A DNA stretch of 64,000 bases from an uncultured Tateyamaria sp. (GTDB taxonomy: Bacteria > Pseudomonadota > Alphaproteobacteria > Rhodobacterales > Rhodobacteraceae), in NCBI RefSeq assembly GCF_947497045.1, contig NZ_CANMEU010000002.1, positions 558,001 through 622,000 of the forward strand, in the 5' to 3' direction. Below are positions 57,296-60,755 of the stretch, piece by piece. Position 1 is the stretch's first letter. Each line of letters begins with the position of its first letter. Under the pieces are notes generated by a model. That model saw only the letters and a list, made by a program, of their open reading frames with translations. It was not told the origin of the DNA and did not search any database. The position numbers were made by a program, and so were the translations under genes.

Positions 57296-57460
57296 GGTGC
57301 ATTTCTCCGCTCGGGTGCCACATTAACTGGCAGATTTCGCGGCGCACACAAGAGGCGCCGACACAGCCGCGACATCAGCGCCGGTTTATTGGGCGGGTCG
57401 CACAAGATTTCAACTGCAACCCTATGCAATTGCTGCATAGCAGCATTGCCGCAGAAAGTA

Positions 57461-57488
57461 TTGTGCAGACGCAGCATTCACTTATGTT
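57461..57488 (+). promoter_or_regulatory. Possible RpoH-type promoter of the DUF1127/sRNA unit
   Basis: TTGTGC (57461-57466) and TATGTT (57483-57488) are spaced by 16 bases, 45 bases before the DUF1127 start. In R. sphaeroides the equivalent unit is driven by RpoHI/RpoHII. A near-perfect inverted repeat lies just upstream (57426-57449). The boxes are weakly constrained, so confidence is modest. Confidence 0.4.
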
Positions 57489-57532
57489 TGGGTCAACGAA
57501 ATTGAGCAAGTTTAGAAAACGAGGCAACACAC

Positions 57533-57766
57533 ATGGCCTATTACAACGACATCAACACCCGCAGCGATCTGGTTGAGCGCATCCTTGGTGCAGCCGCGCG
57601 CATTCTGGAAACAGCAGCCGAGCGGCGTGCGCAAAACCGCATCTATCGCACCACATTGGGCGAGTTGGATGCCTTGTCGAACCGCGAGCTGGCTGATCTG
57701 GGCATGCACCGCTCCGAACTCAAGCGTGTCGCCTGGGAATCGGCTTACGGCAGCGCTGCGCACTGA
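57533..57766 (+). CDS. DUF1127 small protein (CcaF1-like)
   Basis: A 77-aa protein with a C-terminal DUF1127 domain (YRTTLGELDALSNRELADLGMHRSEL), an Arg-rich short helical domain. In R. sphaeroides a DUF1127 gene directly precedes the CcsR sRNAs; its product, CcaF1, has been described as an RNA-binding protein affecting sRNA maturation and turnover. Here the same gene order occurs: four CCTCCTCCC hairpins begin 11 bases after its stop. The start has GAGG nine bases upstream. The N-terminal half (RSDLVERILGAAARILETAAERRA) is an amphipathic helix. Role by homology and context. Confidence 0.88.
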   Translation: MAYYNDINTRSDLVERILGAAARILETAAERRAQNRIYRTTLGELDALSNRELADLGMHRSELKRVAWESAYGSAAH

Positions 57767-57776
57767 ACATCGAGAT

Positions 57777-57851
57777 CAGATGTCCCTCTCCTCCTCCCTG
57801 GGGCATCTGTAAATTTGCGGCGGCGTCCTCCTCCTCCCTGACGTCGCCGCA
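57777..57851 (+). ncRNA. CcsR-type (cuckoo) sRNA unit 1
   Basis: Two hairpins expose CCTCCTCCC. In the first, arms CAGATG (57777-57782) and CATCTG (57804-57809) close a loop with the motif at 57790-57798. In the second, 12-bp arms 57816-57827 and 57840-57851 (one G-T wobble) enclose the motif at 57830-57838. Two such loops per RNA is the described form of CcsR/cuckoo RNAs of Rhodobacterales, which are cut from the DUF1127 transcript and induced by stress. The motif imitates the anti-Shine-Dalgarno end of 16S rRNA. Confidence 0.85.
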
Positions 57852-57890
57852 CCTTTTCATTCCGCGCCCTTAAGGGTGCATCACGAGACA

Positions 57891-57973
57891 CATCGCGATC
57901 CGGTCCTCCTCCTCCCTGACTGGTGCGATGTTGCCAGAGCGGCGGCCCCTCCTCCCTGGGGTCGCCGTTTTTT
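57891..57973 (+). ncRNA. CcsR-type (cuckoo) sRNA unit 2
   Basis: It has the same two-hairpin form as unit 1. Hairpin three has arms CATCGC / GCGATG (57891-57896, 57925-57930) and an inner stem CCGGTC / GACTGG; its loop carries CCTCCTCCC at 57908-57916. Hairpin four has 10-bp arms 57940-57949 and 57958-57967 with the motif at 57948-57956, then six T. The palindrome CCCTTAAGGG (57867-57876) lies in the spacer from unit 1. Expected products are processed ~75-85-nt RNAs. Confidence 0.85.
57940..57973 (+). terminator. Terminator of the DUF1127/CcsR unit
   Basis: The last CCTCCTCCC hairpin (arms 57940-57949 / 57958-57967, 10 bp with one wobble) is followed directly by six T (57968-57973). It therefore serves as both sRNA stem-loop and intrinsic terminator of the transcript. 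Confidence 0.88.
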
Positions 57974-57976
57974 ACG

Positions 57977-58197
57977 TTGTGTTCACGAAGGTGAACACGA
58001 AGGGTGACAAGGACTGCTTTCGAAGGAAAGCTGTCAGCCACTCCGCAGCGTCCAATCACCACGTTCCAACTTGCCAAGGCGCAAATCCTGCCCGTGATCG
58101 CGATGGGTTGAGGTCGAACGATAGGAAGTGGCCGACAGCTTTTTTTTGCAAAAAGCAGTCCTTGCCACTGATTGCTTTCACCTTCGTGAAAGCAATC
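57977..58197. repeat. Inverted pair of ~65-bp hairpin-bearing repeats
   Basis: Copy one (57977-58042, plus) and copy two (58197-58127, minus) share three blocks in the same order: TTCACGAAGGTGAA (57982-57995; 58190-58177), CAAGGACTGCTTT (58008-58020; 58164-58152) and AAAGCTGTC(A/G)GCCACT (58027-58042; 58142-58127). Each copy has two small hairpins. The outer one of copy two is a perfect 12-bp stem (58170-58181 / 58186-58197) that overlaps the uvrD stop and can serve as its terminator. The 84-base centre has no gene. Confidence 0.8.
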
Positions 58198-60755
58198 TAA
58201 AACGGAATGTCATCACACCCCGTGATAAATTTCGAAATAACCTTCTTCAGACCGGCCTTTTCAAACTCGATCTCCAGTTTGTCGCCTTCGATCCCCACAA
58301 CCGCACCATAGCCGAATTTCTGGTGGAACACCCGCTCGCCCATGGTGAAACTGGACACCGCATCAAGGTCTATCACCGTGTTGCGGCTTTCCTTGGGCTG
58401 ACCGATGGGGCGATCGCCCGCACGCGCTTGCAGACGCCTCCAGCCGGGTGAGTTGTAAACATTCGCATCTGCCGCCGCCTGATGCAGCCGGGATTCCCCC
58501 ATGGAGGGCGCCGCCGCACCATATCCACCACCATATAATCCGGGCGGGGTCAGCACATCCACATGCGCTTCGGGCAACTCGTCAATAAAGCGGGACGGCA
58601 GCGACGATTGCCACTGCCCGAACACGCGCCGATTGGCGGCAAACGAGATTGTGCAGACCTCTTCGGCGCGGGTGATGCCGACATAGGCCAGGCGGCGCTC
58701 TTCTTCGAGGCCCTTGATCCCGCTTTCGTCCATGGATCGCTGCGAGGGGAACAGGCCATCCTCCCATCCGGGCAGGAACACGCAAGGAAATTCGAGCCCC
58801 TTGGCCGCATGCAGCGTCATAATCGACACCTTGGCCCCGGCCTCATCCTGTTCGTTGTCCATGATCAGCGACACATGTTCGAGGAACCCTTGCAGGTTCT
58901 CGAACCCCTCAAGCGCTTTAACCAACTCCTTGAGGTTCTCAAGCCGCCCCGGTGCCTCCGGCGTCTTGTCGTTCTGCCAATGGGCGGTGTAACCACTTTC
59001 GTCCAGAATGATCTCGGCCAGCTCCACATGGCTGACAGGGGGCGGGCCGTATTCACTGCGCAAGGGCACCACGCCGTCATCCAGAACGCTGTCATCCTCT
59101 GCCACCTCGATCCGGGGGCCGCGCAGCTTGGCATGCCATCTGGAAATGCCTTCGGCCAGGCTGCGCAACTCAGTCCCGCCCTTGCCCTTGATCAAACCCT
59201 GCTCGACCGCCAAGAGCGCACCCTCGACCAATGAGACTCCATTGGCGCGGGCGGTGATCTGAATGGTTTGTTGCGCCTTGTCGCCAAGGCCGCGCTTGGG
59301 GGTGTTCACGATCCGCTCGAAGGCCAGATCATCCTCGGGGCTGACGACGACGCGGAAATAGGCCATCGCATCGCGGATCTCCATCCGCTCGTAAAAGCGC
59401 GGGCCGCCGATCACGCGGTAGGGCAATCCGATGGTCAGAAACCGATCCTCGAAGGCCCGCATCTGGTGGCTGGCGCGGACCAGAATTGCCATTTCGTCCA
59501 GCGACACCGGGTCCATGCCCCGGGTGCCCCGCTGCGCGGCCTCGATCTCGTCCCCGATCCAGCGCGCCTCTTCCTCGCCGTCCCAATGACCGATCAGGCG
59601 GACTTTCTCGCCCTCTTCCTTGGCCGTCCACAACGTCTTGCCAAGCCGGTTCTCATTGCCGTCGATCACGCCCGAGGCGGCGGCCAGAATGTGAGGTGTC
59701 GAGCGGTAGTTTTGTTCCAACCGCACCACATGGGCACCCGGAAAATCCTTTTCAAAGCGCAGGATATTGCCCACCTCTGCCCCGCGCCAGCCATAGATTG
59801 ACTGATCGTCATCGCCCACACAGCAGATGTTCTTGTGTCCTTGGGCGAGCAGGCGCAGCCATAGGTATTGAGCGACGTTGGTATCCTGATACTCGTCCAC
59901 CAGAATAAAGCGGAACCAGCGTTGATATTGTTCCAGCACATCCGGGTGGGTCTGAAAAATGGTGACCATATGCAACAGCAGGTCGCCAAAGTCGCAAGCG
60001 TTCAGTTCAAGCAGGCGACGTTGGTATTGTTCATAAAGCTCGACGCCCTTGTGATTATACGCCCCACCATCAGATGCGGGTATCTTATCCGGTGTCAGCG
60101 CGCGGTTTTTCCAGCCATCGATGATATTGGCCAACTGGCGGGCGGGCCAGCGCTTGTCGTCGATCCCGGCGGCGCGGATCAGCTGCTTCATCAGGCGGAT
60201 CTGATCATCGGTGTCCAGAATGGTGAAGTTGGATTTCAAATGAAGGCCGCGGCGCGCGCCGTCGGTACCGCTCTGTGATTGAAAATCGCGCGGCGGGCCA
60301 AGCTCCTCTTGTGCCGTAAGCTCCCTGTCACCCGTGCCAGCATCACTTTGGATTACCTTGCCATCGTCCATCGAAATCAATTCGGCATGACGCCGCAGCA
60401 GCTTCACACAGATTGAGTGGAAGGTGCCCAGCCAAGGCACCCCTTCGATCTGCCCGCCGAGCATCGCACCCACGCGGGTCTTCATCTCGCGCGCAGCCTT
60501 GTTGGTGAAGGTCACCGCCAAAATCTCGTTCGGACGCGCGTTCCCGGTGTTGAGCAGATGAACGATACGCGCCGTCAGCGCACGGGTCTTGCCCGTACCG
60601 GCCCCGGCCAGCATCAGCACCGGACCGTCCAGCTTTTCGACGGCCGCGCGCTGTTCGGGGTTCAGACCGTCCAGATAGGGTTGCGGACGCGCAGCCATCG
60701 CACGGGCCGACAGGGATGCGCCCTCAAAGGCATCAAATTCATCATAACTGCTCAT
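58197..60755 (-). CDS. uvrD: ATP-dependent DNA helicase UvrD/PcrA
   Basis: An SF1A 3'-5' DNA helicase acting in mismatch and nucleotide excision repair. The 852-aa protein is longer than E. coli UvrD (720 aa). Motifs: Q-motif LNPEQRAAV near residue 30, Walker A AGAGTGKTRAL near 50, motif II VDEYQDTN near 288, motif III GDDDQSIYGWRGA near 312, motif IV LEQNYRS near 347, motif V TLHAAKGLEF near 655 and motif VI YVGITRAEE near 698. About 40 residues rich in Gly, Asp and Gln (about 128-170) interrupt domain 1A before LKSNFTILDTDDQ. The C-terminal ~50 residues form a Tudor-like domain. Confidence 0.96.
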   Translation of the reverse strand: MSSYDEFDAFEGASLSARAMAARPQPYLDGLNPEQRAAVEKLDGPVLMLAGAGTGKTRALTARIVHLLNTGNARPNEILAVTFTNKAAREMKTRVGAMLGGQIEGVPWLGTFHSICVKLLRRHAELISMDDGKVIQSDAGTGDRELTAQEELGPPRDFQSQSGTDGARRGLHLKSNFTILDTDDQIRLMKQLIRAAGIDDKRWPARQLANIIDGWKNRALTPDKIPASDGGAYNHKGVELYEQYQRRLLELNACDFGDLLLHMVTIFQTHPDVLEQYQRWFRFILVDEYQDTNVAQYLWLRLLAQGHKNICCVGDDDQSIYGWRGAEVGNILRFEKDFPGAHVVRLEQNYRSTPHILAAASGVIDGNENRLGKTLWTAKEEGEKVRLIGHWDGEEEARWIGDEIEAAQRGTRGMDPVSLDEMAILVRASHQMRAFEDRFLTIGLPYRVIGGPRFYERMEIRDAMAYFRVVVSPEDDLAFERIVNTPKRGLGDKAQQTIQITARANGVSLVEGALLAVEQGLIKGKGGTELRSLAEGISRWHAKLRGPRIEVAEDDSVLDDGVVPLRSEYGPPPVSHVELAEIILDESGYTAHWQNDKTPEAPGRLENLKELVKALEGFENLQGFLEHVSLIMDNEQDEAGAKVSIMTLHAAKGLEFPCVFLPGWEDGLFPSQRSMDESGIKGLEEERRLAYVGITRAEEVCTISFAANRRVFGQWQSSLPSRFIDELPEAHVDVLTPPGLYGGGYGAAAPSMGESRLHQAAADANVYNSPGWRRLQARAGDRPIGQPKESRNTVIDLDAVSSFTMGERVFHQKFGYGAVVGIEGDKLEIEFEKAGLKKVISKFITGCDDIPF

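Follow-up and report, generated by a model that had tools for sequence, protein, structure and literature searches.

The window, by which we mean the whole 64-kb stretch of DNA analyzed, carries near its right end a short DUF1127 gene, an array of four hairpins beginning 10 nt after its stop codon and, upstream of both, a conserved promoter module at 57423-57488. The upstream neighbor of this unit codes for an Mrp/NUBPL-type ATPase and the downstream neighbor for a UvrD helicase, both on the - strand. The features of the locus are as follows:

57423..57448, + strand: box A of the promoter module, TATGCA-N4-CTGCATAGCAGCATTG, from the alignment of loci and published motifs
57461..57488, + strand: putative core promoter, TTGTGC (57461-57466), 16 nt, TATGTT (57483-57488), from the 26-locus alignment
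57464-57477, + strand: box B, a second TGCA-N6-GCAT, overlapping the core promoter
57533..57766, + strand: gene for a 77-aa, CcaF1-like DUF1127 protein (open reading frame and PF06568)
57777..57809, + strand: hairpin 1 of unit 1, with CCTCCTCCC in a 13-nt loop (pattern search and folding)
57816..57851, + strand: hairpin 2 of unit 1, a 12-bp stem and a loop with CCTCCTCCC (pattern search and folding)
57864..57879, + strand: short palindrome between the units (inverted repeat), a possible processing region
57890..57931, + strand: hairpin 3 of unit 2, a bulged stem and a loop with CCTCCTCCC (pattern search and folding)
57936..57973, + strand: hairpin 4 of unit 2 (predicted fold 57936-57971), with only TCCTCCC unpaired

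The DUF1127 open reading frame scores 36.9 bits against PF06568 (cut-off 23.3) and lies immediately 5' of the array, the arrangement of "CIN1" (DUF1127-cuckoo) loci. Exact copies of CCTCCTCCC, located both by reading the sequence and by pattern search, start at 57790, 57830, 57908 and 57948; pattern search finds the motif nowhere else in the window on either strand, and four copies are reached in none of 100 shuffles of the window, which average 0.38. Across the whole genome the motif occurs 19 times, as compared to nine for its reversed control, and four of those 19 form the DUF1127 array. The initial annotation, made from the sequence alone, described four motifs on four hairpins in two two-hairpin units behind a DUF1127 gene, and both the positions and the predicted folds agree with this: the fold z-scores are -6.2 for unit 1 and -5.6 for unit 2, with none of 200 shuffles of either being equally stable. 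It further placed the motif in all four loops, which holds for hairpins 1-3 (the third with a 2-nt bulge in its stem) but not for hairpin 4, whose predicted stem takes up the first two C of the motif and leaves TCCTCCC in the loop. Its reading of this last hairpin as the terminator stands in that the hairpin leads into a run of six T (57968-57973), the first of which pair within the predicted fold; yet hairpin 4 is absent from the sites listed by a scan for terminator-like structures, and we regard it as the probable intrinsic terminator. The same-genus locus L059 shows, by eye, a similar element at the place of the inter-unit palindrome.

The definition of the cuckoo family, as cited in the available text of PMC4504443, includes two to four hairpins with a conserved loop motif, and the array presents four hairpins with four copies of CCTCCTCCC. 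The covariance search suggested at the outset gave a graded answer: the Rfam model CcsR1 (RF02791) matches unit 1 at 43.9 bits (E 2.6e-9) and unit 2 at 32.1 bits (E 7.9e-6), both below its gathering score of 65.3, the ar14 model (RF02344) reaches 48.0 bits on unit 1, likewise short of its gathering score (58.8), and no Rfam family reaches its gathering score in the window. Two relatives do pass the CcsR1 gathering score, G051 with 106.2 bits and G091 with 94.1 bits, and they share the layout of the window, with the promoter module, a DUF1127-like frame (by eye) and then the array, which comprises 14 and 12 motifs, respectively. Together, the anatomy and these relatives bear out the proposed CcsR/cuckoo identity and support a CIN1 locus that carries an anti-Shine-Dalgarno array of the cuckoo/CcsR type. 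With CcsR1-4 of Rhodobacter sphaeroides it has in common the DUF1127 gene, the two-hairpin units, the CCUCCUCCC loops and a terminal hairpin with a T-run; it differs in having two units rather than four and in the shortened loop of hairpin 4. It also resembles NfeR1/alpha-r14 of Sinorhizobium meliloti (RF02344), for which repeated CCUCCUCCC hairpins and a TGCA-N6-GCAT promoter element at about -70 are likewise described, although NfeR1 is reported as a free-standing three-hairpin RNA whereas the array follows a DUF1127 gene. The array is of a known type, a further example of an RNA family already described.

Such arrays are widespread in the family: 178 of 248 genomes have two copies of CCTCCTCCC 20-45 nt apart, as do 162 of the 215 with a completeness of 90% or more and a contamination of 5% or less, with the reversed control giving at most four matches per strand in any family genome. 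Array size varies considerably. Behind the homologous gene of a same-genus genome (G240, locus L059) we see three two-hairpin units, one with a degenerate motif (units by eye), as compared to two in the window, indicating that copy number changes within the genus; at the other extreme the array of G165 has 26 CCTCCTCCC motifs. In the latter (L301, L008) the motif spacing recurs, by eye, as a higher-order three-hairpin unit of ~140 nt.

Compensatory stem changes, which had been named as a test of the array, are evident in the relatives. Taking the 525 exact motifs that start 150-2500 nt past the beginning of the module at 106 loci, we scored the best stem per motif, using right arms from other loci as the control. 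Real arms give a mean score of 9.69 and swapped arms 4.95, while 79.8% of the real and 18.9% of the arm-swapped stems score at least 7, the control probably being itself inflated by a common GCGGCG-type arm. The left arms are distinct in 373 of 419 cases, in keeping with the non-conserved helix sequence expected of cuckoo RNAs. The earlier statement that stems differ while loops are identical is too strong for the window, where the 3' arms of hairpins 2 and 4 both contain GTCGCCG. A relaxed search recovered 502 hairpins, of which 394 have the CCTCCTCCC 9-mer, 52 only CTCCTCCC, 26 TCCTCCC, 19 CCTCCC and 11 other loops; the three hairpins recovered at L164 and L185 all lack the full 9-mer. These two loci are from Planktotalea and Roseobacter metagenome-assembled genomes and have arrays behind DUF1127 with loops of CTCCTCCC or shorter. 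Taken together, co-variation and the relaxed search show that the stems are kept as stems despite sequence change and that the loop core is (T)CCTCCC. This pattern bears on whether the hairpins are nothing but a 3' stability or terminator structure of the DUF1127 mRNA, with identical loops left over from tandem duplication. The position of the array directly behind the gene and the six T after the final hairpin suit such a role, but constant loops on rebuilt stems with so many distinct left arms do not, nor do the free-standing arrays lacking DUF1127 described below; we hold it to be very improbable.

What the present analysis adds is the promoter module, which matters more than the array. It was derived by reading upstream of the array in 30 relatives and the window and has the layout TATGCA-N4-CTGCATRGCAGCATTG, ~11 nt, ATTGTGCA-N3-GCAGCAT, ~5 nt, TATNTT. 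The module scores at least 29 out of 37 in 26 of these 31 loci, with 22 columns invariant across the 26 when aligned. Among the remainder, pattern search finds neither the module block nor a DUF1127 frame at L006, L014 and L016, L008 lacks the block only by being cut at the locus edge (the longer piece L301 contains it), and L026 has a weak module (26/37; 27.1 bits). A sequence-only profile built from the 26 loci finds the module in 228 of the 248 family genomes at E <= 0.01 and in 206 at E <= 1e-6 (hand count), with the contributing genomes matching by construction and the 22 matches weaker than 1e-6 being possibly due to chance. A pattern scan of named genomes gave at least 80 module loci (117 stretches listed), and among the module loci listed every title naming a genus or family points to Rhodobacterales.

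The 106 module loci assembled for further comparison comprise 80 from named genomes (by module pattern), 25 from the family (by box A score) and the window. A DUF1127-like open reading frame lies within 900 nt of the module in 101 of them, by a profile built from these same loci. Of the other five, L174 is cut after 70 nt, while L158, L194, L196 and L018 have free-standing cuckoo arrays behind the module. The first 700 nt of L194 hold, by eye, two successive free-standing two-hairpin RNAs, the -35/box B portion of the module being repeated in front of the second. At L001, L004, L026 and L029 box A holds an ATG in frame with DUF1127 and thus reads as an N-terminal extension of the protein, M-x-x-L-H; the automatic annotation of these proteins may start too early.

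Box A has counterparts in the LsrB/VtlR regulon of Rhizobiales, which includes NfeR1 and AbcR1, AbcR2 and three DUF1127 genes in Brucella, and VrsA in Agrobacterium. The S. meliloti cuckoo-type RNA NfeR1 is reported to be activated by LsrB via TGCA-N6-GCAT near -72 to -57 (PMC10746234); for PabcR1 an LsrB consensus GCAT-N3-TG-N3-T is given at -61 to -49 (PMC8844928); and Brucella VtlR, the LsrB orthologue, is described as controlling AbcR2 and three DUF1127 genes through the motif CAATGCAGCCATGCA (PMC12595884). Box A contains TGCA-N6-GCAT at 57425-57438, roughly -70 to -57 relative to a transcription start that is predicted, rather than mapped, near 57495; the counterpart of GCAT-N3-TG-N3-T falls at about -60 to -48. 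In the latter the window reads GCAT-AGC-AG-CAT-T and so departs from the strict PabcR1 consensus, whose T is replaced by A in 77 and by G in 28 of the 106 loci, one giving no match. The 15-mer at 57434-57448 has two mismatches to the published Brucella VtlR site when compared with the reverse complement of CAATGCAGCCATGCA; since 4.6 matches are expected by chance per 64 kb at three mismatches, this site counts only by its place.

Among the 31 loci, picked solely by their arrays, paired TGCA-N6-GCA(T) elements 22-34 nt apart and at most 480 nt upstream occur in 18, whereas none of the 212 control window-strands drawn from these loci has them, and the VtlR 15-mer with at most two mismatches gives the same figures (18/31 versus 0/212). 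The motifs were taken from the papers, albeit sought after the block had been seen. Two other candidates for box A were rejected by eye, namely an NtrC site (TGC-N11-GCA), which is off by one, and the OxyR box, which does not match.

The genome of the window also encodes an orthologue of LsrB, which scores 374 bits as compared to 175.6 bits for the next LysR protein. As references we used LysR genes downstream of trxB in genomes of the class, which came from 13 of the 30 trxB loci taken. The protein is 44-51% identical to 11 of these 13 trxB-linked LsrB sequences, and the region of the DNA-binding helix is nearly alike (by eye). In a tree of 47 proteins, in which long branches, including two doubtful trxB-locus rows, leave the deep forks unsure, the LsrB copies of the family form a single clade (100/100) nested among the trxB-linked LsrB, while the other 19 LysR proteins of the genome fall outside the LsrB group (92/70). 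The orthologue search, the identities and the tree thus disagree with the statement, in the text available from PMC11975290, that LsrB is found solely in Rhizobiales; an LsrB-type protein is reported from many Alphaproteobacteria in PMC7486931. A trxB-lsrB operon was sought in the genome of the window and not found: the orthologue is located elsewhere, the open reading frames around trxB include a divergent Lrp-like gene, with none of the LysR type among them (named by eye), and the promoter of the lsrB orthologue itself has no module. Eight family genomes were judged to be missing LsrB (best E worse than 1e-80), five of which keep the module; five of the eight are less than 90% complete and two are drafts of 320-460 contigs, while the assembly of another, G090, has about 10 contigs and a completeness of 97%. 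As almost every genome of the family carries LsrB, its presence or absence relative to the module says little.

Compared with the LsrB/VtlR regulon of Rhizobiales, the locus shows the same cargo of anti-Shine-Dalgarno-type RNA and DUF1127, the same type and position of box, and an orthologous regulator. It differs in that a single operon holds both cargoes, the T of the published consensus is replaced by A or G in the box, and lsrB is unlinked to trxB. From these sequence comparisons we infer that an LsrB-type regulator switches on the DUF1127-array operon. In the literature searched, as far as its text was available, we found no link between Rhodobacterales cuckoo/CcsR RNAs and LsrB/VtlR, though the founding cuckoo papers might describe the promoter.

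The module can also be read as that of an ordinary CcsR locus transcribed by RpoHI/RpoHII alone, with box A being the site of some other factor or part of an extended promoter. The -10 region in the 26-locus alignment is often CCATNTT, which we take to resemble RpoH sites, and a sigma-70 consensus scan of 57300-58100 returns no site; moreover, the available R. sphaeroides papers assign the ccaF1-CcsR promoter to RpoHI/RpoHII. RpoH on its own leaves unexplained why a block lying 13-38 nt 5' of the -35 element is conserved, why this block resembles three published LsrB/VtlR motifs, and why it occurs before free-standing cuckoo RNAs. We therefore consider RpoH alone unlikely, while noting that control by RpoH and control by LsrB can both be true at once.

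One such free-standing RNA is found in the same genome. The only other strong module is on contig C13 (29.2 bits, E 1.6e-6; the next match has 15.1 bits), where it precedes a free-standing RNA with one CCTCCTCCC hairpin and one CTCCTCCC hairpin:

C13:81755-81955 (L067 1380-1580), - strand: second free-standing cuckoo RNA, behind the same type of module

This RNA scores 42.9 bits with ar14 and 34.4 bits with CcsR1, both below gathering, and its site reads GCAT-AGC-TG-CAT-T, which fits the consensus GCAT-N3-TG-N3-T. About 0.6 kb from the C13 module is the start of a divergent gene whose product has a ParA-type ATPase domain; it may be repA of a repABC replicon. When plasmids were searched with the second RNA by BLAST, one record was returned, with 31% query coverage.

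Across the class, the module profile matches 67 of 385 genomes at E <= 0.01, five of them in the family; the 62 outside it match at E 1.8e-6 or weaker, and such weak matches are often due to chance. At 25 out-of-family loci an anti-Shine-Dalgarno hairpin lies 70-330 nt downstream in five (5/149 in controls) and a DUF1127-like open reading frame is present in three. Scanning 20 sources, 18 of them from the 25 loci, gave suhB/MmgR RNAs above gathering at four loci, one being also among the five with hairpins; for most of the 25 we found no hairpin, DUF1127 or suhB/MmgR cargo. Box A-like sequences lie ~170-195 nt upstream of the suhB/MmgR RNAs above gathering at L278, L282, L284 and L288, which belong to one family, other than that of the window. 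The most telling match outside the family, though weak (18.4 bits, E 0.0033), is that of G287, directly downstream of a trxB-lsrB pair and followed by hairpins with CTCCC (by eye) and AbcR-like RNAs that Rfam recovers only below gathering; the AbcR genes of A. tumefaciens are reported to sit just downstream of the trxB-lsrB pair. A strict NfeR1-like promoter pattern, combining the LsrB box with sigma-70 elements, has no match in the 385 class genomes, the rhizobial box being taken from PMC10746234. The ar14 model matches 10 of 240 class genomes, none above gathering; of 12 ar14 loci inspected, five lack CTCCTCCC in the search range, and among the other seven the exact box occurs only in two records of the second RNA of the window genome.

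We propose with good confidence a CIN1-type operon with LsrB/VtlR-type activation and cuckoo RNAs cut by RNase E as the whole explanation of the locus. Transcription would probably be activated from box A, at about -70 to -48, by a LysR regulator of the LsrB/VtlR type, perhaps assisted by box B over the -35 region and by an RpoH-type sigma factor. The predicted transcript would run through DUF1127 and the array of two two-hairpin cuckoo RNAs to terminate at hairpin 4, and RNase E would probably cut it between the units to yield RNAs of roughly 80 nt. The DUF1127 protein may modulate RNA maturation, by analogy with the work on R. sphaeroides and S. meliloti; CcsR processing and help from DUF1127 are reported for the former (PMC8625941, PMC10253847). 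CcsR RNAs are characterized as stress-induced products that RNase E releases from the DUF1127 transcript. The loops would then probably pair with purine-rich Shine-Dalgarno sites of the GGAGG type and block the translation of many mRNAs.

Whether the loops act on specific mRNAs is where an alternative arises, namely that the hairpins are mainly a decoy (sponge) for a protein or the ribosome, with array length setting the dose. A highly variable array size, reaching the 26 motifs noted above, and a loop far more constant than the stems accord with this, as does the reported binding of CcsR RNAs to Hfq (PMC8307010). Against it, NfeR1, which has the same loops, is described as silencing ntrB through them, with mutated loops losing the effect (PMC10746234), and the mRNA of the FlhR regulator is reported as a target of CcsR1-4. 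We thus regard a mainly decoy function as rather doubtful and favor silencing of mRNAs through the loops.

More broadly, we lean towards the view that an LsrB/VtlR redox regulator with a cargo of anti-Shine-Dalgarno RNA and DUF1127 is an ancient alphaproteobacterial circuit rather than a speciality of Rhizobiales, which in Rhodobacterales has taken the form of one operon tuned by hairpin number. If so, the Rhodobacterales cuckoo operons would gain a named redox-responsive activator besides RpoH, and the AbcR, NfeR1, suhB/MmgR-like, DUF1127 and CcsR systems would be united under one regulator.

Finally, the stretch between the array and uvrD (57970-58202) is a long imperfect inverted repeat with 51-nt arms that are 78% alike, which has no match among plasmids. 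At the L059 locus a related stretch (GGCCGACAGC...AAGCAGTCCTTGCCAC) recurs, by eye, two or more times in tandem, which gives the repeat the look of a small element that is mobile or expanding.
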